Shown: one piece after another, positions 2 to 25,719 of the stretch
How the letters are laid out: each line of letters opens with the position of its first letter
Numbering within the stretch: the stretch's first letter is position 1
Source of the DNA: a virus
IMG/VR virus record: IMGVR_UViG_3300020442_002322
Coordinates: 1 to 64,000 of that record
Reading direction: 5' to 3' (one strand)
Length of the DNA stretch: 64,000 nt
Translations under genes and position numbers: made by a program
The notes under the pieces: model-generated
The model's database searches: none
What the model was told of the DNA's origin: nothing
The model's input: only the letters and a program-made list of their open reading frames with translations

Positions 2-445
2 ATTCCGCCAAAGTGGGATGAAACAAAGTATACTATTGATAATTTTACAGGTGTTACATATAGGTATTATAAAGATTTACAAGATATGGAACCAATCAAA
101 ACAATAAGAGAACAATTAAATTTTCCATATCTTGATTACACAACTACTCAATTATTAAAATTTCCGCCTCATAATGGTCCAACCATACATAGAGATACAG
201 AACGCCATACTGCAATACTTTTTCCAATTTATACAAACGAAAAATACGAACCAATTAAATTTTATCATGACGATACTTCAGAATGGTTTGAAGTAGATTA
301 TCATGACCAAGTTATTGTGTTTGATGCAAAAGTTTTACATGCTGTAGCAAACAAAAAAGATAATAGGTTTAGTTTACAGTTTGATTTTAAAGAACCCTAT
401 GCAGAAGTGTATAAAAAATATTGCGAAGGAGAATTCTTTGCTTAA
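2..445 (+). CDS. 2OG/Fe(II) oxygenase-like protein (5' end cut by window)
   Basis: The reading frame is open to the left edge, so the N-terminus lies outside the window; an ATG at 86 is only an internal Met. The visible part looks like the core of a double-stranded beta-helix dioxygenase: an H-R-D metal motif (His codon 188-190, Asp 194-196), a distal His (338-340, context KVLHAV) and an Arg nine codons later (365-367) that could bind 2-oxoglutarate. Such enzymes hydroxylate proteins or small molecules using Fe(II), O2 and 2OG. The gene overlaps the next one by 8 bases, so the two are probably co-translated. Family assignment comes from motif spacing only; the substrate is unknown. Confidence 0.6.
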   Translation: MPPKWDETKYTIDNFTGVTYRYYKDLQDMEPIKTIREQLNFPYLDYTTTQLLKFPPHNGPTIHRDTERHTAILFPIYTNEKYEPIKFYHDDTSEWFEVDYHDQVIVFDAKVLHAVANKKDNRFSLQFDFKEPYAEVYKKYCEGEFFA

Positions 446-2618
446 CGTTTTTGGAGTACAACTTGCATCGAACTATCATGTTACCTTACCTGTCAGTTTA
501 GGTACACTATGGGCTTATTTGTCTACAGTAAAAGATGTGTATAAACATCTTAATCTTACAGGCTGGGCTGTATATCATGCACCTGATAGTAGCGTATTAG
601 ATTTATTACCAGATGTTGACAAAAATGGTGAACCAGATGTTGTGCTTGTAAGTTTGTATATGTGGAATAGGAACAGGTCAATAAAACTTACAAAGGCAAT
701 AAAAGAAAAGTATCCTAATGTAAAAATTATTGTAGGTGGTAACGAAGTGCCACAAGACCCTGAACGCTTTGAGAAGTTTGTAGCAGATAATCCTCAGTTT
801 GATTATTATGTAAACAGCGAAGGAGAAGTTGCATTAGAAATGATGCTAAGAGAAATCCTTAAAGAAAAAAACATTTACAAATCAGATTACTACAATGATT
901 GTTTTCATAAAACTAAAAATGGAAAAGTAATAAGTAAACAAAGCACAAGAAGATATTTAAATCACAAAGCAGAACTAGATTATCCAAGTGCTTGTGCTAT
1001 GGGCATATTTGATGATCTAATTAAGTCCTTTCCTAAAGACATACAAATACAAGGTGTTTTAGAAACAAATAGAGGTTGCCCTTATACTTGTACTTTTTGT
1101 GATTGGGGGCTAGAAGAAAAATTAAGACGTTTTAGTATGAAACGCATCAAAGATGAAATAGATTGGTATGTGGGCAATGTTCATGAAATAATGCTTTCAG
1201 ATGCTAACTTTGGAATTTTACATAGAGATTTAGATATTGCAAAATATCTAGTCAAAGCAAAACTAAAACACCCTAATCCTAAACTGCATACCACAGCAAT
1301 TACGTATGCAAAAAATAATAAAGAACGTGTTTTACGAATTGCTGAAATATTAGAAAAGTTTGATTTCAGTAGAAGCGGTGCAACATTTAGTTTACAAAGT
1401 TTGCATACACCTACATTAGAAGCAATACGCAGAGATAATCTAAGTATTACCAAAGATTTTGAATGGATTGCTAGAAATTTTATTGCTAAAGGTATTCCTT
1501 ACTACCACGAAATGATTATGGGAATGCCATTAGAAACTAAAGAAAGTTTTCTAAGTGGAATTAGTAAATTACTTCAATTTAATCCTCTAGAAGTAAATGT
1601 ATATAAACTTGCATGGCTAGAAAACAGTGAAATAAGTTTAGCAAAGCACGAAGATATTTACAAACTAGAATGGGACGAATTTGAACAAGGCCCTAGTCCA
1701 TATGCAGATGAAAAAGAATACGCATATATTATTGGTAGTACTAGTACAATTTCACGTAGTGATATGAAATACATTAGAGATATTAGAGACTTAATCCAAA
1801 TACTTTGGCTCGGCAGAACTATATTTTACATTGGCAGATACATGCAAAATGAATATAATATTGAAGCATGTGATATGATTGAAAAAATTGTTGATTGGTT
1901 TAATACAAAAGGTGACAAAGAATTTTTTGATACACTTATGGCAAGCAAAGAAGACCTAAGAGATGAAAAATATAATGTGCCATTATGGTTTCCATTTCAA
2001 AAAGACAAATACAAATTCCATAGATATGCAAATGCATGGTTGTATATACACGGCACAAAAGAAAGAAAAAATCATTTTTACAATCAAATAACACAATTTT
2101 TTCTCGATACATATAAACAAGTAGATAAAGATGTATTATTAGATCTAATACATTTTAATAAGAATATTATGATTGATGGCGAACAAAAAGATTTTATTAC
2201 TAGTTTCAAAACAAAATACAGCTGGATTGATTATTTTACAAATCATGATTTAGAAAAATTAGAAACAACATACAATGCAAAAATCGAAGTTGCAGGAAAT
2301 ACTAAAGTTTCTAAAGGTTCAGTAGATAGAGATATTTTTGTTTATTATATTGCTGGCGGACATGAATTTATGTTTAACAAACAGAACGCATTTTATTATC
2401 CTGAAGGTACATATACAAATCAAAATGGCAGTCACGATTACATAAGTAGAATAGGAACATTCTATCCTGCAAATACATATTTTGAAAGTGCTGAAGATAT
2501 TATAGATAGTATTATGGAAGAAGATGATATTGACATCAAAGATTATAAAACAAATGCTACACTAAAAATCTTAAAGAACATTAACCAAGAAAATAATCCG
2601 TTCAAAGTTTCTGCTTGA
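438..2618 (+). CDS. B12-binding-type radical SAM protein
   Basis: I choose the TTG at 438 as start because a strong ribosome site (GAAGGAG, 425-431) lies 6 bases before it; the ATG at 381 has none and would overlap the upstream gene by 65 bases. The product is 726 residues. Residues about 60-130 look like a Rossmann-type cobalamin-binding domain (IIVGGNEVP near 98-106) but lack a clear DxHxxG motif. The radical SAM cluster motif is C214-x3-C218-x2-C221 (RGCPYTCTFC), followed by a TIM-barrel-like stretch and a long C-terminal region I cannot assign. Members of this class carry out radical methylations or ring chemistry. It converges on, and overlaps by 17 bases, the last gene of the minus-strand island. 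Confidence 0.8.
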   Translation: MLNVFGVQLASNYHVTLPVSLGTLWAYLSTVKDVYKHLNLTGWAVYHAPDSSVLDLLPDVDKNGEPDVVLVSLYMWNRNRSIKLTKAIKEKYPNVKIIVGGNEVPQDPERFEKFVADNPQFDYYVNSEGEVALEMMLREILKEKNIYKSDYYNDCFHKTKNGKVISKQSTRRYLNHKAELDYPSACAMGIFDDLIKSFPKDIQIQGVLETNRGCPYTCTFCDWGLEEKLRRFSMKRIKDEIDWYVGNVHEIMLSDANFGILHRDLDIAKYLVKAKLKHPNPKLHTTAITYAKNNKERVLRIAEILEKFDFSRSGATFSLQSLHTPTLEAIRRDNLSITKDFEWIARNFIAKGIPYYHEMIMGMPLETKESFLSGISKLLQFNPLEVNVYKLAWLENSEISLAKHEDIYKLEWDEFEQGPSPYADEKEYAYIIGSTSTISRSDMKYIRDIRDLIQILWLGRTIFYIGRYMQNEYNIEACDMIEKIVDWFNTKGDKEFFDTLMASKEDLRDEKYNVPLWFPFQKDKYKFHRYANAWLYIHGTKERKNHFYNQITQFFLDTYKQVDKDVLLDLIHFNKNIMIDGEQKDFITSFKTKYSWIDYFTNHDLEKLETTYNAKIEVAGNTKVSKGSVDRDIFVYYIAGGHEFMFNKQNAFYYPEGTYTNQNGSHDYISRIGTFYPANTYFESAEDIIDSIMEEDDIDIKDYKTNATLKILKNINQENNPFKVSA

Positions 2619-3282
2619 ATTCTGTAACACCTAATCCTATTTTATTTTGATTATCAAATCTAGGATCGTTCCATTCTTTTTTTATCTCTTTAGGAAAAGG
2701 TATAGTAGTATATTCTAAATTTTCTATATTGCTATAATAATCATTGTTAGGTTGCCATGGGGATCCAATACAGACTGTTAATTTTATATCATTGCCTGTG
2801 TTTGTCATACCGTGAGGATGTGAACCATTTATTACATATGCATCTGTTTGCGGCTCGTAGTAATGTTTGTTACTGTTTTCGTCAAAGAAATATAGTGTGC
2901 TTTCTTTTTTACCTTTGACTACCCATCTAAATTTGTGTTGCATACCGCCAACTTCATCTGGTGCACTGTCAACATGATCATTTAACATTTCTCCAGGTTT
3001 TGTTTTTATCACTGTAACATTTCCTACACCACCAATATATGGAAAAATGTAATCTCTTAATGCTGTAACACATGCAGAATCTTCTGCTAAATTTGGATTA
3101 AAACTAAATTGTTCAAACCAACCCACATCCGGTCTAGCATTATATAAACTGCACATCCATGCTCCGTGAAACTTAATCCAATACCAATCATCTTCAGGCA
3201 AAGATAATATTTCGTCAGCAACTTGTTCTTTGTTAGGAATATTTAGATTTACAAGATCCATGTATGTGATTATTCTGTCCAT
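2602..3282 (-). CDS. Aspartyl/asparaginyl hydroxylase-like 2OG oxygenase
   Basis: 226 residues. A PGEMLNDHVDS segment gives the H103-x-D105 metal pair and a GSHPHG segment gives the distal His (155 or 157), the arrangement of cupin-type 2OG/Fe(II) oxygenases of the aspartyl/asparaginyl beta-hydroxylase kind. The ATG at 3282 has AAGGAG 5 bases upstream. It is the last gene of the leftward island, overlaps the previous gene by 13 bases, and its 3' end overlaps the convergent radical SAM gene; no terminator hairpin is visible there. Hydroxylation of a protein or peptide side chain is plausible from the family, but the target is unknown. Confidence 0.65.
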   Translation of the reverse strand: MDRIITYMDLVNLNIPNKEQVADEILSLPEDDWYWIKFHGAWMCSLYNARPDVGWFEQFSFNPNLAEDSACVTALRDYIFPYIGGVGNVTVIKTKPGEMLNDHVDSAPDEVGGMQHKFRWVVKGKKESTLYFFDENSNKHYYEPQTDAYVINGSHPHGMTNTGNDIKLTVCIGSPWQPNNDYYSNIENLEYTTIPFPKEIKKEWNDPRFDNQNKIGLGVTEFKQKL

Positions 3283-4058
3283 TCATACTCCTTGCCACAA
3301 TTTACTCTGTATAATAATCTATTAGGATTGTCTGTGGGCGGACGTCTATGTTGTGTAAACAAACTTTCAGTAATAAAAAGATCTCCTTCGTCCCATGTAT
3401 GTTTATATATAGGAACCTTTCTAAACTGTGCTTGCAACATTTCAAAAAGGTATGTGTTGTGATTTGTTCCTCTGATTTCTGTACAAAATAAATGTGGAAA
3501 AAATAATCCTTCTTTACCTGTAGGATCTTTTATTACAAGTTTCTTCCAGTTAGTATGTGGTTTTATTAAATCTTCTAAATCGTTTTGAAAGACATCATGA
3601 TTGAAATAAAAATTTCCTTCTGCGTTTCTAAGTCTTTTTTTATCTTGTTCTGAAAGTCTATCCCATACCATGTTATTACTTAGATACTCCTGAGTGCCGT
3701 TATCTAAATTTTCTATGCCTTGAAACATTATGAAGGGTGCTAATTTTTTGTTTACACAATTATCACTGTGCCATCCTACTTCGCCCGATTTACCCATACG
3801 TCCTTTAGGTGAACCATCTTCATACTTTTGTCCTGTAATTTGGCCTACATAATTACATTCAGGATGGTCTACAGGACTAGCATCTGCAACATTGCCTAGT
3901 TTATGTGCAATGTCATTTATTGTAGACCAGTGTGTGTCTAACTTTTTAAGTACAACAAAGCCATTTTCCCAAATTAAACTTTCTAAATCTAGCCAAGGAT
4001 TATCTATTTCGTATTCTTCTATTTGTAGTCCAAAAGGCTCTAATTTTTTCAATTTCAT
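3270..4058 (-). CDS. TauD/TfdA-type 2OG dioxygenase
   Basis: 262 residues, the usual length for this family. It shows the N-terminal pattern of TauD-like enzymes (ENGFVVLKKL, residues 31-40), a GWHSDN motif supplying H97 and D99, a distal His at 237 (FTQHRRPP) and Arg 247/251 in the last strand for 2OG binding. TauD/gamma-butyrobetaine-hydroxylase relatives hydroxylate small acids, amino acids or natural-product intermediates. Its ATG overlaps the upstream stop (ATGA), so translation is coupled. It is one of three different 2OG-oxygenase subfamilies placed side by side here. The substrate cannot be told from sequence. Confidence 0.78.
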   Translation of the reverse strand: MKLKKLEPFGLQIEEYEIDNPWLDLESLIWENGFVVLKKLDTHWSTINDIAHKLGNVADASPVDHPECNYVGQITGQKYEDGSPKGRMGKSGEVGWHSDNCVNKKLAPFIMFQGIENLDNGTQEYLSNNMVWDRLSEQDKKRLRNAEGNFYFNHDVFQNDLEDLIKPHTNWKKLVIKDPTGKEGLFFPHLFCTEIRGTNHNTYLFEMLQAQFRKVPIYKHTWDEGDLFITESLFTQHRRPPTDNPNRLLYRVNCGKEYEWTE

Positions 4059-4618
4059 TGTTTATTCTCTACTGTTGTTACAAGATGTATTCTTTGTTCA
4101 AAACTACCATTAAATGCAGTATGTGGTTGTGTTGTATCAACCCAATACAATGTTCCTTCGGGCATATGTACAGTTTTATTATCCCATACCATCATGCAAC
4201 GTTCGTTAGTAATAATAGGTATGTGTAATCTATATGTACTATCTTGATGCCATGTTAAACATGTTTTAGGCTCCATTAGTAGTAGTCTTGTTCTACCAAT
4301 AGTGAATTTATTTTGAAGATCTACAAGTAAATCGTATAGGTATGTGCCTTTGAGGTCAGGCACAATTTTATTAAAATCCTTTTCTGCTACTTTGTTTTTG
4401 CGAGGGGGAGGATTTCCTTCACCATCCCAATTTTCATAATCCCAATCTAAACTGCCTACTGCATCTAGATATTTGTTTTTAGATTTTTCGTTAGCATACG
4501 TTACACCTAATTGTGTTTTAAATACATGAGAAAATAAATCTCTATTTTCAAAAAGTAAAACTGTTTCAGTTTTAAGTCGTTCTATATCAATTTTGTAATT
4601 TATAATTTGCTTGTACAT
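4055..4618 (-). CDS. 2OG/Fe(II) oxygenase, Asp/Asn beta-hydroxylase type
   Basis: 187 residues. LTWHQDSTYR provides H124-x-D126, TTQPHTAFN the distal His 166, and R176 lies exactly ten residues later, the classical position for the 2OG-binding Arg. This is the most canonical beta-hydroxylase-like member of the cluster. Start and stop overlap both neighbours (TAATG with the SDR gene upstream, ATGA with the TauD-like gene downstream), so it is firmly embedded in the operon. Probable role: hydroxylation of a peptide, protein or amino-acid substrate; no partner is identifiable. Confidence 0.72.
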   Translation of the reverse strand: MYKQIINYKIDIERLKTETVLLFENRDLFSHVFKTQLGVTYANEKSKNKYLDAVGSLDWDYENWDGEGNPPPRKNKVAEKDFNKIVPDLKGTYLYDLLVDLQNKFTIGRTRLLLMEPKTCLTWHQDSTYRLHIPIITNERCMMVWDNKTVHMPEGTLYWVDTTQPHTAFNGSFEQRIHLVTTVENKQ

Positions 4619-5043
4619 TATTGTGGGACTACTGTTATTTCTTTTATAGAGTGGGGTTGTTGTAATACCCAGTCAACTATTCCTACTGCATATTCTAAAG
4701 ACATTTTTTTAACTTCCTTGTCTTTTTGACTTTCAGTATCAATGTGTCCAAAATTTATACACGTAGTTTTAATTCCATCTGAAAACAATTGATGGTTTGC
4801 TTCTCTTAGTGCTTTCTTTTCAACTGCATATTTAAAATTAAAAGTATAATCACTTGCATGTGATCCTATGTTTATTATTTGTTTGCCTAACTCTGCCGCT
4901 TGGTACAAAAGTTCTACTTGATTAAATCCATCATGTTTACAATTAATAAAAATATCACAATCTTCTAATTTATTGACAGTGCCATATTTGTCCAGTAATG
5001 CTTTTCCTAATCCTCTTCTAGTGCCTGTTATAAAATACTTCAT
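4618..5043 (-). CDS. Miniature short-chain dehydrogenase/reductase (SDR)
   Basis: 141 residues against about 250 for normal SDRs. It keeps the N-terminal nucleotide-binding Gly motif TGTRRGLG (G7, G11, G13), a Ser in the GSHAS segment (about residue 61) and a Y72-x3-K76 pair (YAVEK), then an INFGHIDTE strand like the PGxxxT region of SDRs. The distance from Gly motif to Tyr is only about 60 residues instead of about 140, so the middle of the Rossmann fold is shortened. It may be an active minimal reductase or a degenerate one. The ATG overlaps the upstream stop (ATGA) and has GGAG before it, which argues that it is translated. Confidence 0.6.
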   Translation of the reverse strand: MKYFITGTRRGLGKALLDKYGTVNKLEDCDIFINCKHDGFNQVELLYQAAELGKQIINIGSHASDYTFNFKYAVEKKALREANHQLFSDGIKTTCINFGHIDTESQKDKEVKKMSLEYAVGIVDWVLQQPHSIKEITVVPQ

Positions 5044-5690
5044 GTATATTCTCCAGCAAAACGCAAACTTAAACCTATTTTGTGATCAGTAATCATACTA
5101 CCAGTGCAATGTATAAATTTACTATCAAAAATAATAATATCGCCTGGAGCAAAGTCTATAGCATGTCCTGTACAACCATAAAACATTTTTTCGTCTCTAT
5201 ATTCGTGTTGTAAGTAATCATTATAAAACTTTTGATCAATAGGATTATTTGTTAAACCTTTCACGTCTTTATCCTCACTAATATAAGTTGTGCTTGTGTT
5301 AGTTTCAAACTCTTTGCTTATTTTTATATCACCCATATATGTTCTAGGTGTATATTCTGTAACATATTGATCAAAAATAATAAATTTTTGTGGGCCTTGC
5401 ACATATAAAGGCACGAGAACATTTACACAAGGATAACCGCCATGTGTGTCAACATGTGGAAAGTAAGGAAAGGTATGTTTGTAAATGTTATCGCCAAGAT
5501 TAAGAGAAGTATCTACGTGTGGCGAAATAATACTATCTAAATTTTTTACAGTATCGAATGACCAAGGTTGGTTAAGTTTTTCCCAACCATTGTCTTGTTG
5601 TTGAATTAGGTGTCTATATTCATTATAAAAATCAAGAATAGATTCAATATGCTCGTGTGATAGAACATTTTTTAGAATTTTGTACTGCAT
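5040..5690 (-). CDS. Prolyl-hydroxylase-like 2OG/Fe(II) oxygenase
   Basis: 216 residues. H79-x-D81 (FPHVDTHGG), distal His 194 (KFIHCTG) and Lys 204 ten residues later match the prolyl-4-hydroxylase arrangement, where a Lys binds 2OG. It is a clear paralogue of 9289-9978: both share NIYKHT before the HxD, a DQY strand, an FYNxYL segment and a YGxTG...DF.PG stretch before the distal His. No ribosome site precedes the ATG; instead a late-promoter-like octamer ends 5 bases upstream, so the mRNA could be leaderless. The substrate is unknown. Confidence 0.7.
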   Translation of the reverse strand: MQYKILKNVLSHEHIESILDFYNEYRHLIQQQDNGWEKLNQPWSFDTVKNLDSIISPHVDTSLNLGDNIYKHTFPYFPHVDTHGGYPCVNVLVPLYVQGPQKFIIFDQYVTEYTPRTYMGDIKISKEFETNTSTTYISEDKDVKGLTNNPIDQKFYNDYLQHEYRDEKMFYGCTGHAIDFAPGDIIIFDSKFIHCTGSMITDHKIGLSLRFAGEYT

Positions 5691-5695
5691 ACAAG

Positions 5696-5703
5696 TACTT
5701 ATC
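5696..5703 (-). promoter_or_regulatory. Late-promoter-like octamer GATAAGTA
   Basis: The sense-strand octamer fits NATAARTA, close to the T4 late consensus TATAAATA used by gp55 polymerase. It ends only 5 bases before the ATG at 5690; with T4-like spacing the transcript would begin at or next to the start codon. No Shine-Dalgarno sequence is present. Function is inferred. Confidence 0.4.
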
Positions 5704-5722
5704 GTACAGTATAATCAACAAA

Positions 5723-6370
5723 TTACTTTATGAAAGTAGTTTCTATTTCTTGCTTGGCTTTTGTAGGAAAAACAAAGTCTGACTTATGATGAACACGTCT
5801 ATTCTTATCAACATTTTTGAATCCTACACCCATAAGTAATTTAATAGGATTTTTTGCACCAATAGTTTCTGCAATATCGTTTTCATTAAAACATGCACAA
5901 CACCCTGTACCGTAACCTAGCATACTAGCAGTTAAATTTACGTAACCTGCCGCAATACCTATAGCCATAAACCTATCTCTAGCTAAAACATCTTTTTGTT
6001 TTTGAGTGATTTCATCATTGTCATGTGCAAGCAATTCGTCATTCCTAAACACTGTATCAGTGGTATGTCTATCAATGTAATCTTCTTCTTCAAATGCAAT
6101 CAATAAATTTGCAAGAGTTTGACTATTTGTTTCACTACCGCCTGTTTCGTAGTTTGTAAATCCTGCTGTTTTATCGTGAACTGATTCGATTACGTCTCTA
6201 TTTGTGATAAAATGAACTTTGTAAAATGCAACATTTTGTTTGCTAGGACACTGCGTTGCCGCATGTACTATTAAATCTAAATCTTCTTGTGGAATTTCTT
6301 TGTTAAGATCCCAGTTACGTTGGCAGTGTTGACTTCTAATAACTGCTTTTTTGATTTCGGTGTGTTCCAT
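5723..6370 (-). CDS. Nitroreductase-family flavoprotein
   Basis: 215 residues. The N-terminal QHCQRNWD (14-21) takes the place of the usual RRSxRxF FMN-binding motif; CPSKQN and a Gly/Ala-rich helix followed by GYGTGCCACFNE fit the nitroreductase/FMN-dehydrogenase fold, as does LLMGVGF near the C-terminus. Such proteins reduce or dehydrogenate substrates with FMN and NAD(P)H; some act on peptides (for example azoline oxidases). It is closely related to 8640-9296, which has the same QHCQRNWD at the same residues. The ATG has a strong AGGGGAGG site, and a late-promoter-like octamer lies 21 bases upstream. Confidence 0.75.
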   Translation of the reverse strand: MEHTEIKKAVIRSQHCQRNWDLNKEIPQEDLDLIVHAATQCPSKQNVAFYKVHFITNRDVIESVHDKTAGFTNYETGGSETNSQTLANLLIAFEEEDYIDRHTTDTVFRNDELLAHDNDEITQKQKDVLARDRFMAIGIAAGYVNLTASMLGYGTGCCACFNENDIAETIGAKNPIKLLMGVGFKNVDKNRRVHHKSDFVFPTKAKQEIETTFIK

Positions 6371-6390
6371 GTAATACCTCCCCTGTAAAG

Positions 6391-6398
6391 TATTTATC
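6391..6398 (-). promoter_or_regulatory. Late-promoter-like octamer GATAAATA
   Basis: Sense-strand match to NATAARTA, 7 of 8 to T4 TATAAATA, 21 bases before the nitroreductase ATG at 6370. It overlaps the stop codon of the upstream radical SAM gene and sits in the loop of a small 6-bp inverted repeat (GTAAAG/CTTTAC). It is inferred to allow late expression of the downstream genes. Confidence 0.45.
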
Positions 6399-7506
6399 GC
6401 TTTACTTTTGGGATCTTACTATCTGCTGAACTTACACAACTTTTTGTTATACACGTTTTTGGTTCTTTAAATAGGTTAAAACCTGTTTCGATGTTGCCAA
6501 GAGGTGCATCGTGGCAAGAATAACTCCTTTTTACCGAACCGTCAGGCTCGCGTATTATTATTCCGCTGTAACCGGCGTTACACCGCCATCCTTCAAAATT
6601 GTTGAAATTAAAGGCATTAAAGCGTTCTGCTTGGTCCATATACCACTTCTTGCCTTTAGAGTCTTTTAACTCTACTTGCATGTGCCATGGCACACTAGCA
6701 TCGTTCTTACCTTCTACTCCTTTAGGAATTTGGAATGTGGGCTTGGGCCTTTCTTCCCACTGCCTTTTGCTTTCTGTGTAGGCTCGCTGTGGCATTCCGT
6801 TCCAGAGTCTTTCGAGTTGTTCTTTTGTGTATCCTTCAACGACTCGTGATGCAGTTGGATCAGACTGGGGTTTGAGAGTAACGTTAATGCCTCTGGTATG
6901 GAAGTATAAGGCATTCCTCCAGTCTCGTTCAAACCATTCTGGAACCATAACCATATTGATCGTAACTTGGACATCATGTTCTTGACATAGGATGAGTTTA
7001 TTTGCAAACTCTTCCATCCTTTCAGTTGTATTTACATGTTCTGTATGTAAACTAGCAGTTATGCTGGCTCTATGAAATGGCTTTGCATACTCTACATACT
7101 CTTCAAACCATTTCATAGGTCTGCTACAGTTGCTTGTCATGTGTATGCTTGTATAGTTTGTATTTGGCACATCATCTGCCAAATGCTTTAGTATGTCCAA
7201 GTATCCAGGATGGAAAGTAGGCTCTCCTCCCGACAAGGAGAAGTGGAAACTGTTAAAACCGTTGTCTCTGGCTTGACGTTTAATTTCATCCACTGTAAGC
7301 AAGCAGAGCTCGGTAGGACGGTGGTCTTTACGATCACTTCTTGCGTAAGGCCAGCAGTAGGAACATCTGTAGTTGCAGAACCTTCCAAGTAGCCATGATA
7401 CAGTAAAAAGATCACGATAAAGCAAAGTCCGTTGACCCACACTAACAATGTCGTCAAAGGGAATTTTTGTAAAATCGTAATTACTCCATTTTAAATCTTC
7501 AGTCAT
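6394..7506 (-). CDS. Radical SAM protein with C-terminal SPASM/twitch-like domain
   Basis: 370 residues. The [4Fe-4S]-SAM motif is C44-x3-C48-x2-C51 (FCNYRCSYCW), with GGEP at 93-96. The C-terminal part has GWRCNAGY, a DGSVKRSYSC strand, a GNIETG segment and a final CITKSC, resembling a twitch/SPASM auxiliary-cluster domain; enzymes of this design often modify peptides. Same architecture as 7534-8640 and 15324-16223. Base use is unlike its neighbours: much of 6530-7400 is visibly richer in GC (about 48% in a hand-counted 60-base line), giving long spurious frames on both strands. Recent transfer or recombination is possible. Confidence 0.8.
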   Translation of the reverse strand: MTEDLKWSNYDFTKIPFDDIVSVGQRTLLYRDLFTVSWLLGRFCNYRCSYCWPYARSDRKDHRPTELCLLTVDEIKRQARDNGFNSFHFSLSGGEPTFHPGYLDILKHLADDVPNTNYTSIHMTSNCSRPMKWFEEYVEYAKPFHRASITASLHTEHVNTTERMEEFANKLILCQEHDVQVTINMVMVPEWFERDWRNALYFHTRGINVTLKPQSDPTASRVVEGYTKEQLERLWNGMPQRAYTESKRQWEERPKPTFQIPKGVEGKNDASVPWHMQVELKDSKGKKWYMDQAERFNAFNFNNFEGWRCNAGYSGIIIREPDGSVKRSYSCHDAPLGNIETGFNLFKEPKTCITKSCVSSADSKIPKVKR

Positions 7507-7533
7507 GTTGTTATAATAACACCTTGTACTAGA

Positions 7534-17565: not shown

Positions 17566-18971
17566 TATACGTCCTTAAAAATATCTTTCATTTCTGGAAA
17601 TGTTTTTGCAAAACTAATTCCGCGTTGTTGATCACAGCGTTCTAAAAATTCTTTAGTTTCTGGCAAACGTACACTCCAATCTTCTGATTCCATAAACTGT
17701 AGCATACCTTCTAGTCTGCTAATTCCATAACTTGCTTCACGCCATTTGTCATATGTTACTTTTCCTTTGTGCCAACTAGGAACACCTTTTTCCCAATTAG
17801 CTTCCCACCAAGGATAAAATTCTTCATACTTACGACGGCATTCGTCTTTAAACCACTTAGGCAATACTTTTACATTTAGGTGAGGTGGGTGATAAACAAA
17901 ATGATAATTTATACCTCCTGCACCAAACGGCCACATATTAATTTTATTAAATCCTTCGTTTAGTTTCCATTTAATAAAATCTGGAATATAATAAATGTTT
18001 AGTGCTTGTACTGCACAAGCAACTGTAACTTCTACATTGTTACCTGTTTGCTTGTCAAGTATATGAAATACTTCTCTTGTGCGATCCCATTTGCTAGGAT
18101 AGCGTATATAATCGTTCATGCTTTCAATGCTGTCAACGCTGTAATGAAAACGTACCAATTTAAAGTGCTTCCAGAGCTCGAATAAATCTTCTCTCCATTC
18201 AACACCATTGCTGTTGTAACGCAATTCAAGATCTTTTGCATATCCTTGACGAATACATTCTTCAAGTATTTCATAATGTTCCTCAATAATTAAACTTTCA
18301 CCGCCTGCAAAATAAATCTGTTGCATGTTTGGAATTTGTTCATAGAACTGTTTCCAAAAAATTGGATTTTGTTTGTGCCAATTATAGCTACTGCCGTTGT
18401 AACTACCTTTGTCTTTCCATTGCATAGTTTCTTTAAGACTTGCGTTTTCAACTGCTGGAAATACTGCTTTCCAATCTTTGATCCAGCCTGAACTGTCATG
18501 TGGGCTACACATTACACAGGCAAGTTGACATTTAGTACCAAAGCGTAAATCAATGTAAGTTAGCTCAGGTGGCACACTGCCATCTTTATCTGTGTTTGCA
18601 ACAAGCCTGTCTACATCAACACGTTGACTCCAGTAGTTTGTTTCCCACATACGTTTACTGTTATGTCCAGCGGCTTCTTCTTTGTAACATTTTAAACAAC
18701 TAGGCGGCATTTCTCCGTTAAGCATTTGCTTACGGACATTTTTCATGTATGTACTATTCCAACTTGTTAAAAAATCACTTACATTTAGATTGTTAGGTTT
18801 GCCGTCTTCTGTTTTAAGGATACCTACTTGTCCGCCATGTTCTTTATCATTTGTTTTGCCAACCGAACTTGCATTAGCAGTACAGCATACTCGCATACTT
18901 CCGTCTGGTCTTGTGCTAAGGTGTACCCATGGAAGGATACAAAATGTGTCTGAGGGTGCTTTGTAATTCAT
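17565..18971 (-). CDS. Radical SAM protein with N-terminal SPASM-like domain
   Basis: 468 residues. N-terminal block: C11-x-LPWVHL, RPDGSMRVCC (C29, C30), a KNVRKQMLNGEMP helix and CLKC (C92, C95), almost a textbook SPASM signature but placed before the core. Core motif C148-x3-C152-x2-C155 (KCQLACVMC); the SAM-binding GGEP is changed to GGES (223-226). Paralogue of 16207-17565. The ATG at 18971 has no nearby ribosome site; a late-promoter-like octamer lies 8 bases upstream, so a nearly leaderless late mRNA is possible. Confidence 0.82.
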   Translation of the reverse strand: MNYKAPSDTFCILPWVHLSTRPDGSMRVCCTANASSVGKTNDKEHGGQVGILKTEDGKPNNLNVSDFLTSWNSTYMKNVRKQMLNGEMPPSCLKCYKEEAAGHNSKRMWETNYWSQRVDVDRLVANTDKDGSVPPELTYIDLRFGTKCQLACVMCSPHDSSGWIKDWKAVFPAVENASLKETMQWKDKGSYNGSSYNWHKQNPIFWKQFYEQIPNMQQIYFAGGESLIIEEHYEILEECIRQGYAKDLELRYNSNGVEWREDLFELWKHFKLVRFHYSVDSIESMNDYIRYPSKWDRTREVFHILDKQTGNNVEVTVACAVQALNIYYIPDFIKWKLNEGFNKINMWPFGAGGINYHFVYHPPHLNVKVLPKWFKDECRRKYEEFYPWWEANWEKGVPSWHKGKVTYDKWREASYGISRLEGMLQFMESEDWSVRLPETKEFLERCDQQRGISFAKTFPEMKDIFKDV

Positions 18972-18979
18972 TATATACG

Positions 18980-18987: not shown

Positions 18988-18994
18988 TCCTATA

Positions 18995-20062
18995 CTATTT
19001 AAATTGCTCCGTAAATGGATCCCATTCAACGCCACACTTTTGAGCGCAAACTTTTAATTTACCATCTGCACAACTAGACTTATTCCAGCTAGTTTCTATG
19101 CGGTTGAATATACCTGTTTCAAAAACTTTCCATAATCCATTGCGTGTATCTAAAGATTTTTTATCTCCAATAAAATCCCATATTTGTTCTTTTGTTGGAT
19201 CTTCTAACCACCATTTGTACATGCGTCCGGCAGTCCAACAGCAAGGCATAGCAAGCCCTTCTGCTGTAATATATAAACTATTATCTTTTTTAACTTTACA
19301 ATCGACAGGCACTGCATCATAATAGTTGTCCATACTACCATATTTCTCTAAGAGTTTTTCTTGCTTGGTAAGTGCTTTGTTTTGGTATTTTGCTTCTGGT
19401 TTTTTGAGCTCTGTTGTATCTTTGCCTTTGCGATTTTTGGCTTGATGAGTTTCTTTTTTATTGGTTTTAGCATCTACAAATCTTCCTGTTTTCTTTGCTA
19501 CAAATTTTTCAAAGCCCCATTCTTTTGACAGTGCTTCTGCTTCATCTACTTGATGTTGGTTATGTTCAAATATTAAAAAGTCCCATCTAGCTCTGCCGCC
19601 TGCTTTTGTAAAAGCTCGCATACTGCGTTCTACATTGTTCCAAACAACACCTTGCCTGTACAAATGATTAGTATCGCTAAGACCATCCACACTAAAAATA
19701 ACTGCACCCATTCTACCAAAGACTTGAGCTAATTCAGTCCACCACACTTCGTCTCTTGCTCCTGCATTTGTATTCATGCTTAGCCAAATGTTTGTATTAT
19801 GCTCTCTAAAATAACGGAAAATTTCTAGTGTATCACGTGCTACTATCGGGTCACCATGATTGCCGCACATATACATTGTTTTTAATTGAGAAATAAATTC
19901 AGGACTAAAAATTTTTTTACAATCTTCTAATGTAAGTTCATCTAAATTGAGGTGTGGATTTAATCCTTCTCCATTCATGTTGCGATCACACATAGGACAA
20001 GAGGCTTGACAATTTTGTGTTACCTCTAAGTGTATTGTTTTTATATCTTCGTATCTATACAT
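18995..20062 (-). CDS. Radical SAM protein with C-terminal SPASM-like domain
   Basis: 355 residues. The motif is C18-x3-C22-x2-C25 (NCQASCPMC); in place of GGEP it has GNHGDP (about 67-72), a variant seen in another radical SAM/SPASM branch. A Lys-rich linker (about residues 205-245) leads to a C-terminal domain with AMPCCWTAG and a CAQKCG end that could bind auxiliary clusters. It differs clearly from the other seven minus-strand radical SAM proteins. It overlaps a 74-residue unknown gene upstream by 8 bases, so the two may act together. Confidence 0.8.
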   Translation of the reverse strand: MYRYEDIKTIHLEVTQNCQASCPMCDRNMNGEGLNPHLNLDELTLEDCKKIFSPEFISQLKTMYMCGNHGDPIVARDTLEIFRYFREHNTNIWLSMNTNAGARDEVWWTELAQVFGRMGAVIFSVDGLSDTNHLYRQGVVWNNVERSMRAFTKAGGRARWDFLIFEHNQHQVDEAEALSKEWGFEKFVAKKTGRFVDAKTNKKETHQAKNRKGKDTTELKKPEAKYQNKALTKQEKLLEKYGSMDNYYDAVPVDCKVKKDNSLYITAEGLAMPCCWTAGRMYKWWLEDPTKEQIWDFIGDKKSLDTRNGLWKVFETGIFNRIETSWNKSSCADGKLKVCAQKCGVEWDPFTEQFK

Positions 20063-20279
20063 CGTAAACTAATTTTATTTCTTTTCCTGGACCTACACGA
20101 CTTGGTAAATCTCCGTATTGTTCTACATACCATTTAATTACAGCCTTGTACCAGTTTTCACTATTGTGATGTGCTTGCTTGTTAAACTGGTATATGTTGT
20201 TATTTGTTGCTTGCATTGTGCTTAGTGCCCTAGCACTTTCTTTTTGCAGTTCACGTCTTGTTAAATTACTTATATCCAA
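20055..20279 (-). CDS. Small unknown protein
   Basis: 74 residues if it starts at the TTG at 20279, the first possible start after an in-frame stop; a GGAGG lies about 15 bases upstream, which is far. It overlaps the 1008-residue gene by 14 bases and the radical SAM gene by 8, so the frame is kept open in a tight operon. The sequence is rich in Asn, Gln, Lys and His, has no Cys, no signal peptide and no membrane segment. I do not recognise it. Being small and next to a SPASM-type enzyme, it could be a partner, carrier or substrate, but nothing in it proves this. Confidence 0.45.
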   Translation of the reverse strand: MDISNLTRRELQKESARALSTMQATNNNIYQFNKQAHHNSENWYKAVIKWYVEQYGDLPSRVGPGKEIKLVYDV

Positions 20280-23200
20280 TTTTCATAAACCTCCTGTACG
20301 TTACTAAATCTAACGTACCTTCAAATAGTGTTTGTGTCATCGGTGTTGATTTACTAAACATTTCAATATCTTTTGAACAGTTTACATGTTCTTCAACATC
20401 AATATAATCATTGCTTTGTAATATTACTAATTTACCTGCAGGTATTTTTCTATACCATTCGTCAAAGTTTACTATGTGTTCACAACTTGTGTTTACGATT
20501 GTATCTGGACTGTCACTTAAACTTGTTTCTACACCTTCGCTTTTTTGTACGGTATAATAATGTGTATTATAATCAATATCAAATATATCTTGCGTAGATG
20601 CTTTAAACTTCCAGCCGTCTAGTGCAAGATCACGATTAAACATTTCTGCAATATTAGCAACACCAGGATCAATATCAAAACTACGAATTTTGTTAAATTT
20701 AATATCTGCTTCTTGTATCATAGGAACAAGTGTAGCATACCAACCTGCACATAAAAATACAGTGCCTAAATCTACATCAAGACTTTTTAAATTATCTATA
20801 AGCCATTTTTTACTTTTAAGTTGTCCACGACTCAAACAGTCTAGATCAAATTCTATATTATTATTGACTAGATATTTCAAAGGTTTTACAAACTTACTTT
20901 GTGTATGTTTGTCAAGAACGCTCCACAACACATCTTTATTGTTTTCCATAGCAAGAATAATTTCATTTTTTACTTCAGGCTCAATTCTTTTCAATGCCCA
21001 GACATTTTTATCAAATGCAAGTTTTTTAAGATCTGTTGCTGTATCATGTTCTTCTAACAATCTAAACAGACTGTATGGATTTTCATCAACTAGTATTTTT
21101 CGTAAATCTTCGTTGCCTTGAATATATTTAAAAATACTAGTTGGGTTTTTTGTAAGAACTGCTTTTCGTAGTTCGTCATAGTCTTCGCCTAACACTCTAA
21201 ACAAACTATACAAATTTTTATCAAAAATTGCTTTGCGAAGTTCTTCTTGCTCAGGAATAAGATTAAAAACTTCTGCCATGTTTTCTTGTATTACTGCTTG
21301 ACGTAGTGTTTCATGTTCTTCACCTAACAGTCTAAACAAACTATGTATATTCTTTTCGAGAAAAACTTTACGTTCATCTTCTAGTTCTATACCTTTATCT
21401 TCTAGATATCTAAACAAACTATGATAGTTTTTTTCTTCTACAAACTTACGTAGATCTTCGTTACCTAATATACGTAACACATCAAGTAAATGACCATCAT
21501 TGTAAAATCTTCTTAAGTTAGTTACTTTGTCACCGTATAATATTTCAAATCTATCAAGTAAATCTACTATAAAACTATCACGTGGTGCAAGTTGTAGTGT
21601 GTTTTGTTTAGACTGTACCTTAATCGGTACACTTTCTTGCGGTACATTTTCCGCTTTTGGAGCACTTTCTTGCACATCAATATCTGGATAGTCCTCATGG
21701 AAACGTTTTCTTAACCATGCAAAGTCATTTATTAGCCCCAGATTGTCCCTGCTAGAAAGGCCAAACTCCATACCAGCGGTAGCACCTGCCACAGCGTATT
21801 CCCCAAAAGGTCTATCGTGTCCCACGGTTGTCCAAGTTTTGAGTCTTTCATTAGTTTCGTCCTCCTTTTGTCTATCAATTACTTTACTGCTTAATTTTGC
21901 ACATTCTCTAAATCCACTTTTCCAAGTTTCAAAAGGCCCTGTGTTGAATCTTGTTACTACACTTATCTGATCCATTTTCTTAAATTTAGTGCTAAGGCTA
22001 GTTGTCATATCCTTTGTTGTGGTGTCCATGTCTCTTGCCATTTGTGTAGGAAATAATTTAATACCACCATAACCGTAAACAAGATCATTTACAGGATTTT
22101 CACTGCGCCATACATGCACTGTATCTGTTTGTGTAGTTACATAATCAAAATTAAAGTCGTCTTTTAGTTCTGCATCGCCATCTATAATCCAAAACATTTC
22201 TGTTTCACAAATGTTTGCCGCGGCAACGTGTGCATTGTGTATACCTTTTACTCCGTGTATACGTTTTGCACGAGGATAGCGTTTTAACAAACGTTGATAG
22301 TTTTCATCTGCGTTTGGTTCCGCATAACTGATCATGACTATATCATATTCATTAGATTTGTTTTCAGGTTCTGGAACGTATTCTGCTGTAACATATGGAT
22401 GCTCTGGACGTGGCGGGTTTCTATATGTTAGTTTATAGAATTTGCTTTGTTCACTTGTAAAAGGATGTGCAGGAATATCTACATCTAATTCGTAGCGTAG
22501 TTTTTCTCCTTGTGCAATTATTTCGTATGGTAGTTGTGCGTCAGGAACTTTGCTATACGTGTCTTTCCACAAACTATTTAGGTACTCAAAGTCACGTACA
22601 TTTACATAGTTCCAATCTGTACACATTGTTTTGTACAAACCTTCTCTAGCACCAAAAATTGCCCACTTGCCGTTTTCTACATCTGTGCCTACTGTACACC
22701 AAACATATAAACGTTCTAAATTTTTAGCATGTACACTTCTCACATCTTGTGGTTTGATACCTTCTATCAAGGACATCTTTACGCCTTCTCTAAATCCTGC
22801 TCGCCATGCTTGTTGTGGTGTAGCATTGTTATGTACTGTACTCATTAGACTATTGATTTGTATGTACTCAAGGTCCCAACAAAAGTCAATACCAGCCGCA
22901 ATATTATCAGGATCAGCATTTTCATGTGTTTTCATACGTAGAACTGTTTCTCTATCCCAGCATTTGATACCGCCATTGCCATAACGTAGCCCGTTGATGA
23001 TATTATCAGCTGTCCAACTGATTACATGTCTGGACAAATCTACGCCTGGTTTAAAATTAACTGCTTGATTAAGAAATTGTTCATCAATTTGATTATCACC
23101 GTCAATTGTTATAAATCTTTTTGTGTCAGATATCTCTGCACAAGCCTTGTGTGCGGCATCTGATCCTTCTACACCATGTATGCGTTTTGCCCAAGGCACT

Positions 23201-23292
23201 TTTGTAAGAAGATTAGCATAATTTTCTTCCGCATTAGGTTCATCATATGAAAGATAGATTATATCGTAGTCAATAACTTTAAACTGTGCCAT
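20266..23292 (-). CDS. Tandem glycosyltransferase-like domains + 22-residue repeats + methyltransferase-like domain
   Basis: 1008 residues with four parts. Residues about 7-240 and 316-530 are two related GT-A-like domains: each begins with YDI and an SYxEPNAxENY strand, continues with AKRIHGV and has an IDGD acid motif (63-66 and 370-373) suited to metal-nucleotide-sugar binding. Residues about 590-795 form nine or so copies of a 22-residue helical repeat. Residues about 815-1005 resemble a class I SAM methyltransferase (FLCAGWYATL near 846-855, DIDP 873-876). It could glycosylate and methylate a target held by the repeats. A short patch near 21740-21860 is richer in GC than its surroundings. 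Domain names come from motifs only. Confidence 0.62.
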   Translation of the reverse strand: MAQFKVIDYDIIYLSYDEPNAEENYANLLTKVPWAKRIHGVEGSDAAHKACAEISDTKRFITIDGDNQIDEQFLNQAVNFKPGVDLSRHVISWTADNIINGLRYGNGGIKCWDRETVLRMKTHENADPDNIAAGIDFCWDLEYIQINSLMSTVHNNATPQQAWRAGFREGVKMSLIEGIKPQDVRSVHAKNLERLYVWCTVGTDVENGKWAIFGAREGLYKTMCTDWNYVNVRDFEYLNSLWKDTYSKVPDAQLPYEIIAQGEKLRYELDVDIPAHPFTSEQSKFYKLTYRNPPRPEHPYVTAEYVPEPENKSNEYDIVMISYAEPNADENYQRLLKRYPRAKRIHGVKGIHNAHVAAANICETEMFWIIDGDAELKDDFNFDYVTTQTDTVHVWRSENPVNDLVYGYGGIKLFPTQMARDMDTTTKDMTTSLSTKFKKMDQISVVTRFNTGPFETWKSGFRECAKLSSKVIDRQKEDETNERLKTWTTVGHDRPFGEYAVAGATAGMEFGLSSRDNLGLINDFAWLRKRFHEDYPDIDVQESAPKAENVPQESVPIKVQSKQNTLQLAPRDSFIVDLLDRFEILYGDKVTNLRRFYNDGHLLDVLRILGNEDLRKFVEEKNYHSLFRYLEDKGIELEDERKVFLEKNIHSLFRLLGEEHETLRQAVIQENMAEVFNLIPEQEELRKAIFDKNLYSLFRVLGEDYDELRKAVLTKNPTSIFKYIQGNEDLRKILVDENPYSLFRLLEEHDTATDLKKLAFDKNVWALKRIEPEVKNEIILAMENNKDVLWSVLDKHTQSKFVKPLKYLVNNNIEFDLDCLSRGQLKSKKWLIDNLKSLDVDLGTVFLCAGWYATLVPMIQEADIKFNKIRSFDIDPGVANIAEMFNRDLALDGWKFKASTQDIFDIDYNTHYYTVQKSEGVETSLSDSPDTIVNTSCEHIVNFDEWYRKIPAGKLVILQSNDYIDVEEHVNCSKDIEMFSKSTPMTQTLFEGTLDLVTYRRFMKIGYK
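20893..21525 (-). repeat. Protein-level 22-residue repeat array within the 1008-residue gene
   Basis: Nine or so units at residues 590-800 follow the pattern acidic-x-L-R-K, four variable residues, K/E-N, two variable residues, S-L-F-R-x-L-G-E, with period 22 to 26. The best units contain LRKAIFDKNLYSLFRVLGE and ERKVFLEKNIHSLFRLLGE. They look like two-helix solenoid units, suited to protein binding or spacing. The DNA copies are diverged, so the array is old rather than freshly duplicated. Confidence 0.75.
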
Positions 23293-23797
23293 GTACTAGT
23301 CCGTAAGAATCAAACACCATAGGTGTGTATATACTTACATCTCCCTTTTCTTCTTCGTCAATGAACTGAACTGTATGTCCATTTGTAATTTGTTCTACTG
23401 TTGCTTCAAATGTTCTAATCAACATATGTAAATCTCTTTTGTGTGTTACACTGAACCTACAAAGCCTATTAGGCTCCAGCAAAATATCTGTATTTCCCAT
23501 TGTAACTTGCCAACTGCTGTTGTTTTTAGTAATCAAACAGTCTGCACTATCTATTGTAGGTACATGATGTATGATATCCTTGATATCATACGACACTTTA
23601 GGTTGCACATATGGTAATAATTTGTATTTCTTTTGTGCTACACTGTATTTTACAACATGTCTGTCTCTTAATGACTTATCTTCTGCAAACTTTACGTATA
23701 GGTCTTCATCAACCTCACAAAAATTGTCATCCTTGGGCGGCATATTTGTAAGTCCATTGATACGCCCAGTGTCTTTGTCAAATTTTACGTAATACAT
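23279..23797 (-). CDS. Unknown protein, possibly structural
   Basis: 172 residues, not recognised. The N-terminus (YYVKFDKDTGRINGLTNMP) reads like the short beta modules at the start of phage fibre or chaperone proteins; the rest alternates short strands and polar loops with no catalytic motif, signal peptide or membrane segment. It sits between the GT-GT-methyltransferase gene and two glycosyltransferase genes and overlaps both neighbours by about 13 bases. A role as acceptor or accessory for glycosylation is conceivable from position alone. Confidence 0.5.
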   Translation of the reverse strand: MYYVKFDKDTGRINGLTNMPPKDDNFCEVDEDLYVKFAEDKSLRDRHVVKYSVAQKKYKLLPYVQPKVSYDIKDIIHHVPTIDSADCLITKNNSSWQVTMGNTDILLEPNRLCRFSVTHKRDLHMLIRTFEATVEQITNGHTVQFIDEEEKGDVSIYTPMVFDSYGLVHGTV

Positions 23798-24591
23798 TCT
23801 TTGTACCTTTTCAACATTACATCACAAAAGTCTTTTTCTGTATAATGGAATACACCTTCTTGCTTGTAGTTGCCTATTTTCAAATCATTGTTCATATACC
23901 AATCAACTTTGTGTTGCCAACTTTCACCTACAGTATCCCAATTTTGTGCATGTAACTTCATATGTACAAAATTTACAAGATCTTTTGCTCTATCTTCATG
24001 TAATTGTAGCATGTCACACACAATAGCCGCACATACATCGATACTTACATGTTGCGGTTTGTGGTCTTTACAGTAAATGCTGTAAAATTCTTGCCACTCT
24101 TCTATAACAACTTCAAGTATAGCAAAAAATTGTTGTGCAGTTCTACATTTTTTGAAGTAATACATACCTACATACACATCTGGTAATAAATTCATTTCAA
24201 ATGTCTTTCTATAATATCCACTTGACACTGGTTCACCTCTGTATGTTACAGGATTTTGTGTAAAGTAGATATCATAATCTGCAAAAAGATACCAATCTAT
24301 TTTGTCTAACACTAATACGTCACTGTCTAGTACAATAGTTTCGTCATAAGGCGACAGTTCAAATGCTTTATATCTATTTTCAATTTTCCAATCACTGTCT
24401 TTTGCCTTGTCATCTGCCATTACAATTACCCTATCAAACACAAGATAGTATTCTTGTGGTACAGGATTATCAGTTACTAGTGTAAAATTTTTATTTCCAC
24501 TGTATGTTCCACTTAATGCACACAAATATGCCTGTTTGACATAATCATCTTTTTCATTGTTTTGTGCAAAAATTAAAAAACCTTTACTCAT
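23785..24591 (-). CDS. GT-A/GT8-like glycosyltransferase
   Basis: 268 residues. Opens with a GFLIFAQNNEKDDYVKQA strand-helix typical of nucleotide-sugar binding folds and has SPYDETIVLDSDVLVLD with the DSD metal motif at 89-91, as in glycogenin/GT8-like enzymes. A conserved VFHYTEKDF near the C-terminus fits a late His ligand. It is paralogous to the next gene upstream (24588-25388) and preceded by a strong GGAGGAG site. It probably transfers a sugar to a protein or glycan; donor and acceptor are unknown. Its presence with the double-GT protein suggests a multi-sugar decoration. Confidence 0.68.
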   Translation of the reverse strand: MSKGFLIFAQNNEKDDYVKQAYLCALSGTYSGNKNFTLVTDNPVPQEYYLVFDRVIVMADDKAKDSDWKIENRYKAFELSPYDETIVLDSDVLVLDKIDWYLFADYDIYFTQNPVTYRGEPVSSGYYRKTFEMNLLPDVYVGMYYFKKCRTAQQFFAILEVVIEEWQEFYSIYCKDHKPQHVSIDVCAAIVCDMLQLHEDRAKDLVNFVHMKLHAQNWDTVGESWQHKVDWYMNNDLKIGNYKQEGVFHYTEKDFCDVMLKRYKECIT

Positions 24592-25388
24592 AATAACTCC
24601 TCCAATGAAAATTTGTTCATAGCATGTATTGTCATGTCTTTTGTTTTTATAGGTGTAAATTTATTATTGCCATCATCTACCAAGAATGTTAATCTTCTGT
24701 TTGTCATTTTAAGTAAAATGTCTTTGTCTAGTGTGTAAAACAATTTGCCTGGCATAGGATGTACAAAGTCTCCTTTTGTATGTCCATTCATAATATGTGC
24801 CGCAATACTAAACGCAAAATCATTCCTAAATGTAGACTGTGTAATTTGATAGGTCATGCGATAGTGTTTCCAGTTTTCAGCAATATGTTTTACTAGATCA
24901 AAAAATATTTTGTTGACTACTGTTTTTCTAAAAAATACACAAGTAGCCCAATAAAAGTCTACTCCTGTTTCACTAATCTTATCAAACTCTTTGTAGTTTC
25001 TTGTTTGTGCAAGATCATAAGCATCTCTATACATACACAAATCATTAGGCTGGTCAAAGCAGTTGTGCAGTTGGCTATCGCAAACAATTACATCACTGTC
25101 AACTACTAATGTTTCATCATACGGTGAAAGATCAAAACTTTCAGCTCTTGCTGTATTTTTAAAACTTAGAGATTCAGAACCATGTCCGTTGTTATAAATT
25201 TTTGCTGTGTAGTCTTTTACATCTACTTTTATTACTCTGTCAAATAACGTGGTTCTGACATCTATATCTGTAACTATACTTGTAGGAAGATTACAAAATC
25301 TTTCCATACGCATTGCAAGATTTTTTGCCTGTTTTACATAGTCTATAGATTCGTTATTAAAAGCAAAGACTAATACGCCTTTAGTCAT
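24588..25388 (-). CDS. GT-A/GT8-like glycosyltransferase
   Basis: 266 residues, paralogue of 23785-24591: same opening (GVLVFAFNNESIDYVKQA) and the same SPYDETLVVDSDV with DSD at 97-99. The C-terminal portion (HAMNKFSLEELL) is in the place of the VFHYTEKDF segment of its sister. Start ATG 25388 overlaps the upstream gene by 8 bases. Probable metal-dependent sugar transferase; the pair may add successive sugars or recognise different acceptors. Confidence 0.66.
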   Translation of the reverse strand: MTKGVLVFAFNNESIDYVKQAKNLAMRMERFCNLPTSIVTDIDVRTTLFDRVIKVDVKDYTAKIYNNGHGSESLSFKNTARAESFDLSPYDETLVVDSDVIVCDSQLHNCFDQPNDLCMYRDAYDLAQTRNYKEFDKISETGVDFYWATCVFFRKTVVNKIFFDLVKHIAENWKHYRMTYQITQSTFRNDFAFSIAAHIMNGHTKGDFVHPMPGKLFYTLDKDILLKMTNRRLTFLVDDGNNKFTPIKTKDMTIHAMNKFSLEELL

Positions 25389-25719
25389 TAAGCAACCCTT
25401 CTACACTTCTTTTGCTTTTTAACATTTTTCCATATTCTATGCCATATGATGTTGTTGCTCTTTTGTGTGTATTTTTAAGTTGTGTGTAGAAGTCTAACAC
25501 TTCATCAATATACAAAGGAACTCCGTTAGCATCAACAATCCAATAAGGCTCTCCTTGGTTGAGTGCGAAAGTTATAAGTTCTAATGTTGTTTTGAAAGCA
25601 TGACCTTTGTAGTAAAGCATAAGGTCTTTTTCGTACTTTTGTTCTAAAATACGTTTCTTGTTTTTGAATGCTTTTACGTAATCAGCATACTCAAGTGCTT
25701 TAGATAATCGTTTGTCCAT
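25381..25719 (-). CDS. Small unknown protein, first gene of the enzyme-island operon
   Basis: 112 residues. No recognised family. It is charged and probably helical in residues 1-35 and 85-112 (many Lys/Glu), with a central YWIVDANGVPLYIDEVLDF that looks like a small alpha/beta unit. No Cys pairs, membrane segment or signal. It is the promoter-proximal gene, with GGAG close before the ATG and a strong promoter immediately upstream; a regulator or an assembly factor would both suit that position, but the sequence does not decide. Confidence 0.6.
   Translation of the reverse strand: MDKRLSKALEYADYVKAFKNKKRILEQKYEKDLMLYYKGHAFKTTLELITFALNQGEPYWIVDANGVPLYIDEVLDFYTQLKNTHKRATTSYGIEYGKMLKSKRSVEGLLND

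Follow-up and report, generated by a model that had tools for sequence, protein, structure and literature searches.

The Campylobacter phages CP220 and CPt10 possess an interchangeable module of radical S-adenosylmethionine (SAM) genes, described without a known function (Timms 2010, PMC2853527). In these T4-like phages, the module varies between phages, lies downstream of the baseplate genes, and combines five radical SAM genes with glycosyltransferase (GT)-like genes and an amidinotransferase. Pelagimyophages carry a host-recognition cluster, which the accessible part of PMC7029224 describes as a hypervariable island beside the tail fibers in the structural region, with GT8 genes and radical SAM cassettes. 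The marine T4-like genome TARA_ERS488813_N000010 has 12 radical SAM genes, according to the available text of PMC5332604. Here, we analyzed a window of 64,000 nucleotides (bases 1–64000 of the 88,807-base viral record IMGVR_UViG_3300020442_002322), which contains an island of 28 genes (g01–g28) starting directly after the fiber genes. Five of these genes, encoding GT, methyltransferase, and radical SAM enzymes and one small protein, constitute a core that looks like a real pathway shared by phages and Bdellovibrionota, because it keeps the same order in dozens of phage contigs and its enzymes cluster on Bdellovibrionota chromosomes. We assign a probability of about 0.5 to the reading that the minus-strand genes of the island encode a single soluble pathway of modular design, by which a sugar-containing conjugate is assembled and tailored in the infected cell.

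The island shows the arrangement known from CP220: in the tail region of a T4-like phage, several radical SAM genes are grouped with GT-like ones. In contrast, the radical SAM proteins of the CP220 module are only ∼28% identical to their marine relatives, and among its remaining tested genes, GTs included, the amidinotransferase alone has a match, and a distant one, in the marine or bacterial loci, so that homology does not extend to the whole set. An amidinotransferase with two neighbors (families F346–F348) is common to one marine phage island (L037:13664-16977) and Bdellovibrionota loci (L148 and L150), and this amidinotransferase also matches gp086 of CP220. In the cultured Vibrio phage K566, three twitch radical SAM genes likewise adjoin GT-like genes, but with ∼20–28% identity and without the core order. 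The radical SAM–GT clusters of CP220 and K566 are distant analogues. The island shares its location, hypervariability, GT8 gene, and radical SAM cassettes with the pelagimyophage cluster, whereas the part of PMC7029224 at hand describes cassettes and not a conserved core. The major capsid protein of the window phage, encoded in the rest of the record, is closest to that of jumbo T4-like phages (∼70% identity, e.g. to Sinorhizobium phage Phosso and Vibrio phage 2.275.O), and a related capsid gene, 73–93% identical to that of the record, is present in five other viral records tested. The island-bearing virus is a large uncultured jumbo T4-like phage. TARA_ERS488813_N000010 resembles it in its wealth of radical SAM genes and is possibly a member of the same group, but the available text of PMC5332604 describes no operon, core, or bacterial counterpart for this genome. 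A megablast comparison of the island with cultured phages gave no match. Searches of cultured phages detected neither g09 nor g26 nor the GT domain of g24, and returned only distant matches to g21 and g22 (∼20–22% identity). Radical SAM-rich phage islands are already known; the conserved core and its Bdellovibrionota counterpart appear undescribed in the open-access literature searched, most subscription journals lying outside that search.

The sequence-only reading had proposed that the minus-strand genes form one operon. Indeed, 26 genes (g28 to g03, positions 25719 to 2602) are tightly packed over ∼23 kb with a largest gap of 32 bp, whereas g01 and g02 lie outside the operon on the plus strand; all coordinates given below for g03–g28 refer to the minus strand. 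The core consists of g24 (20266–23292), with two GT-A-like domains, a helical segment, and a class I methyltransferase; g23 (20055–20279), a 74-amino acid protein conserved along nearly its whole length and present at 72 of 89 g21 loci; the radical SAM protein g22 (18995–20062, 28.4 bits to PF04055); the twitch radical SAM protein g21 (17565–18971); and g09 (6394–7506), a radical SAM protein with a conserved C-terminal cysteine set (59.7 bits to PF04055).

We scanned viral contigs with g21 and obtained 273 matching stretches, the best 80 of which are 82–89% identical. The loci fetched come partly from overlapping or near-identical contigs, and their counts are not all independent. Every comparable pair retains the core order g24>g23>g22>g21>g09 on a single strand (85/85 for g22–g21, 72/72 for g24–g21, and 47/47 for g21–g09). 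Matches to the twitch radical SAM family number 6–21 per record in all 39 viral records, and g09 is present as one copy in 37 of them. The CxxxCxxC motif is retained by essentially all members of 16 related radical SAM families (144/147 in the worst family). Median dN/dS values against the copy of the window are 0.07 for g21, 0.06 for g09, 0.15 for g22, 0.08 for g23, and 0.19 for g24, while the adjacent fiber family reaches 0.41; the values are rough because synonymous sites are near saturation. By these sequence comparisons, the core genes are under purifying selection. Thus, the core genes show neither of the patterns that would have refuted the proposed pathway: they are not scattered singly among the relatives, and their active sites are not mutated. 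Fe–S assembly genes were considered as universal partners of the core and rejected, as an A-type Fe–S carrier is found in only 2 of the 39 records, most of which are fragments.

The genes interspersed in the core change from locus to locus and include radical SAM, PP-loop, short-chain dehydrogenase/reductase (SDR), nitroreductase, and other genes; the sampled related loci contain 750 radical SAM-like open reading frames in 80 clusters. Such variable accessory content, in a region that is a known hypervariable island, could also reflect a loose set of independent auxiliary genes held together by recombination. This explanation is improbable, because the core never changes its order or strand and its enzymes occur together in a bacterial phylum; the island is not a random pile of genes. 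Several islands have AMP-binding-like proteins (TSGTTG) beside an acetyltransferase-like protein and a minus-strand fiber gene (L084:2270-3259 and relatives). A carbamoyltransferase-like protein occurs in some islands (L072:2524-4032), with distant matches in several bacterial loci. The contigs L101, L102, L114, L116, L117, and L118, labeled as Neisseriaceae, Planctomycetota, Rickettsiales, Gammaproteobacteria, Chloroflexi, and Acidimicrobiaceae metagenome-assembled genomes, resemble phage contigs binned by mistake.

Bdellovibrionota, a phylum of predatory bacteria, carry a chromosomal counterpart of the core. A genome scan revealed full-length g21 orthologues with ∼58–62% identity on Bdellovibrionota contigs of up to 936 kb. 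The neighbors of bacterial g21 are g22, g09, and g24-type GT and methyltransferase genes; a g24-type GT or methyltransferase is close by in most chromosomal loci, and g23 is absent from the Bdellovibrionota loci. Of 241 Bdellovibrionota genomes, 16 have g09, 15 have g22, and 14 have a close g21 orthologue. In each of those 14, a g09 gene lies on the contig of g21, at most ∼5 kb away; of the 15 genomes with g22, 14 also have g09. The co-occurrence of this g21–g22–g09 triad is supported by a Fisher test (p ∼1e-20) that ignores relatedness. Across phages and Bdellovibrionota, g09 is 57–84% identical, and the g09 tree, rooted at the midpoint only, places the phages in a single clade (100/99) adjacent to marine Bacteriovoracaceae and Halobacteriovoraceae. 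A quicker tree of g21 gives a broadly similar picture.

The nine radical SAM genes counted from the sequence (g02, g09, g10, g14, g17, g19, g20, g21, and g22) all match PF04055, with g17 (24.9 bits) and g22 slightly below the Pfam cut-off of 29.5 bits. Four of them belong to the twitch radical SAM family NF033640, namely g14 (10586–11758, 258 bits), g17 (13409–14635, 228 bits), g20 (16207–17565, 361 bits), and g21 (423 bits), all above the curated cut-off of 170 bits. The nearest Protein Data Bank (PDB) entry to the twitch proteins is the peptide maturase SkfB. The remaining operon members are g10 (7534–8640, 37.5 bits to PF04055), which has 15 related viral loci, and g19 (15324–16223, 45.4 bits). 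Assignment as viperin was rejected, as g10 (46 bits) and g09 (38 bits) are far below the NF038283 cut-off of 180 bits. Outside the operon, g02 (381–2618, plus strand) is a B12-binding, KedN5-like radical SAM protein that matches PF02310 and PF04055 above cut-off; it does not qualify as a KedN5 B12 radical SAM C-methyltransferase (188 bits to NF033712 with a cut-off of 700).

The GT and methyltransferase proteins of the sequence-only reading are present as well, g26 by profile, g24 by predicted fold, and g27 by motif. We used fold prediction for g24 and for the putative oxygenase g15, because sequence-profile searches of the PDB with g24 (A3) and g15 (A5) found nothing. Among the Foldseek matches of the AlphaFold model of g24 are chondroitin polymerase, a GT with two domains, and numerous SAM methyltransferases, and a DxD motif is present in both GT domains. 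The GT8 protein g26 (23785–24591) is glycogenin-like, with a PDB profile match to glycogenin (E 1e-7) and the DxD motif in 11/11 sequences, and g27 (24588–25388) is GT-like by its DSD motif; relatives of g27 adjoin g26 in phages and in the bacterial contig L119. No convincing family was found for g25 (23279–23797).

The accessory enzymes of the operon are assigned with varying firmness. Seven oxygenase-like genes are present as claimed, two of them firmly: g04 (3270–4058), a TauD-family Fe/2-oxoglutarate (2OG) dioxygenase (62 bits to PF02668, above cut-off), and g05 (4055–4618), an Asp/Arg β-hydroxylase-like protein (49 bits to PF05118, above cut-off). One is assigned by fold, as g15 (11758–12495) has an HxD…H motif and no hidden Markov model match, but an AlphaFold model whose top matches are without exception Fe/2OG oxygenases (SnoN, KanJ, and EvdO2, E ∼1e-4). 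The nearest folds to g15 include enzymes that act on glycosylated natural products. The other four are recognized by motif or weak match: g03 (2602–3282), which has an HVD…H motif and no hidden Markov model match, keeps the HxD and distal histidine in two relatives; the paralogues g07 (5040–5690) and g12 (9289–9978) keep them in nine relatives; and g01 (86–445, plus strand), outside the operon and truncated at the record edge, is Asp/Arg-hydroxylase-like (15.2 bits to PF05118, below the cut-off of 22.6). Of the three nitroreductase-like genes claimed, g08 (5723–6370, 50.7 bits to PF00881) and g11 (8640–9296, 34.4 bits) are firm, and g13 (9979–10602, 22.3 bits) is just under the cut-off of 23.5. 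The SDR-like, pyridoxal phosphate (PLP)-fold, and PP-loop genes were also recovered: g06 (4618–5043) is a short SDR-like protein with a weak match (16.7 bits to PF00106, below cut-off), and the evidence is weak to moderate for the PLP-aminotransferase-like g16 (12496–13425, PDB match with E 0.002, invariant K189) and the QueC-like PP-loop protein g18 (14635–15339, weak Pfam match, phrog_1550 with E 4e-11).

This combination of B12 radical SAM, 2OG, PLP, and PP-loop enzymes, joined in relatives by carbamoyltransferase and AMP-binding proteins, is like that of natural-product clusters. Together with the proximity of the twitch proteins to SkfB, it is consistent with a soluble small molecule or peptide, i.e. 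a natural product, a nucleotide analogue, or a ribosomally synthesized and post-translationally modified peptide (RiPP), that blocks competitors or host defenses. We consider such a product unlikely, since the island has no precursor peptide, Pfam and a membrane-protein check reveal no exporter or protease in it, and gaps between genes do not exceed 32 bp. A peptide, one of the products envisaged from the sequence, is thus not favored, the tightly packed operon being devoid of a recognizable precursor. As a candidate RiPP precursor, g23 was rejected, as it is conserved throughout without a variable core region and absent from Bdellovibrionota loci.

Phage base-modification pathways include 2OG oxygenases, GTs, radical SAM enzymes, and QueC-like proteins, and the same enzyme classes in the island could serve hypermodification of phage DNA or RNA. 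There is little chance that this is their role, given the core triad on bacterial chromosomes and the absence from the island, by Pfam, of a TET/JBP-type oxygenase or a hydroxymethylase.

None of the 28 island genes encodes a membrane protein, and there are almost none in 115 related families. This bears on an alternative in which the island would protect the infected cell from superinfection by changing its surface glycans, a role proposed in PMC7029224 for GTs of the pelagimyophage host-recognition cluster. The island position matches that cluster with its GT8 genes and radical SAM cassettes, and the triad is also found on Gram-negative bacterial chromosomes. Host-envelope modification is nonetheless quite unlikely, as the Pfam and membrane-protein checks of the island yielded neither membrane proteins nor a flippase, polymerase, lipid-linked priming enzyme, or exporter. 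The RiPP, envelope-glycan, and DNA-modification explanations fit less well than a soluble glycoconjugate pathway.

The operon is preceded by a σ70-like promoter (TTGACA-17-TAAACT, 25741–25769, minus strand). In viral loci that extend far enough upstream, the g28 relative is nearly always preceded by a promoter of this type (10–12 of 12 bases, 17-base spacer); the locus L059 lacks one. The 64-kb window does not contain the T4-type late motif TATAAATA (0 versus 11.4 expected), and the VATAAATA variant of this motif (sites read [A/G]ATAAATA) occurs four times versus 27.8 expected. Each of these four sites lies just upstream of a gene, namely g08, g31, g34, and the baseplate wedge gene; the site before g08 (GATAAATA, 6391–6398, minus strand) is the sole late-type site within the island. 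In relatives, VATAAATA-type sites often precede fiber genes and some island genes. Hence, the late-type promoters of the sequence-only reading are only partly confirmed, and the absence of TATAAATA and the σ70-like promoter in front of the operon led us to reject late-only expression.

The pairing of GTs with radical SAM enzymes in the core, and the lack of a membrane protein, exporter, polymerase, or precursor peptide, lead us to infer a soluble pathway in which the genes serve a common product, a radical-tailored glycoconjugate. In such a pathway, g24 would transfer sugars together with g26 and g27, and the auxiliary-cluster radical SAM enzymes g22, g21, and g09 would radically modify the sugar or the acceptor, helped by g23. 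The variable set of each phage (further radical SAM enzymes, 2OG oxygenases, flavin nitroreductases, PLP and PP-loop enzymes) would then yield different decorations. Transcription probably starts from the conserved σ70-type promoter upstream of g28, and some islands would have additional internal late promoters.

Several points weigh against this glycoconjugate pathway. Many accessory enzymes are assigned by motif only. The Foldseek matches of g24 are weak at whole-protein scale (E ∼1e-5, low TM), and GT specificity is not readable from the fold. The co-location of the triad can come from shared ancestry and cassette exchange. Moreover, a fiber-family profile over the 241 Bdellovibrionota genomes matches only one, the Bdellovibrionales chromosome contig L119, and this is the strongest single point against a fiber as universal acceptor.

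Baseplate and fiber genes span positions 25773–60444, and the first operon gene, g28 (25381–25719), encodes a small fiber-adjacent protein. It is preceded by g29 and g30 (25773–27709, minus strand), fiber-type structural proteins of family F15, and the tail-fiber proteins g31–g33 (27731–33106, minus strand), of which g31 and g33 have PHROG tail matches and g32 is assigned by position and a shared N-terminal pattern. One 4938-amino acid open reading frame (33740–48556), located between the baseplate wedge gene and the fibers, possibly occupies the VrlC position of pelagimyophages. No collagen-like repeats, which would suggest lysyl hydroxylation and glycosylation, were found in the fibers.

Because the island adjoins the fiber genes, a virion fiber or baseplate protein is an attractive first guess for the acceptor. 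On L119 (14293-18704), a phage-type fiber gene is accompanied by g28-, g27-, g26-, and GT-like genes, and the neighboring pheT-, trmD-, and rnhB-like genes read as housekeeping genes. This fiber gene beside the module, the absence of membrane proteins, and the repeated radical SAM–GT pairing (near tail genes in CP220) make a virion acceptor plausible, but it stays a tentative conjecture with the odds somewhat against it. A fiber as common acceptor is rejected, because the fiber family occurs in 1 of 241 Bdellovibrionota genomes and the triad in 14. The coherent tailoring pathway of the sequence-only reading is thus borne out by core synteny and intact motifs, whereas its virion decoration is not established: the bacterial triad mostly lacks the fiber family, the operon promoter is σ70-like, and the island itself contains a single late-type site. 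More far-reaching, and in our view doubtful, is a radical SAM-centered protein–glycan modification common to jumbo phages and Bdellovibrionota, which would mature recognition fibers or other virion or surface proteins with radical-made sugars or cross-links, variable cassettes providing phage-specific decoration. Phage-like fibers of the MAT family are known from Bdellovibrio (PMC10769870), in the same phylum as the triad.

Radical SAM clusters have been reported from phages since 2010, but no function has been assigned to them. A fixed core now stands apart from the variable cassettes, and its enzymes are found in a cellular phylum. What was an inventory becomes a testable pathway: it offers five genes to express, active sites that are defined, CP220 as a cultured analogue, and organisms that are candidates for study. 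Should the product prove to be a conjugate of the virion or the cell surface, the pathway would add a new layer to the recognition chemistry of phages and predators; if it is a metabolite, these islands would represent a large untapped source of radical enzymes.

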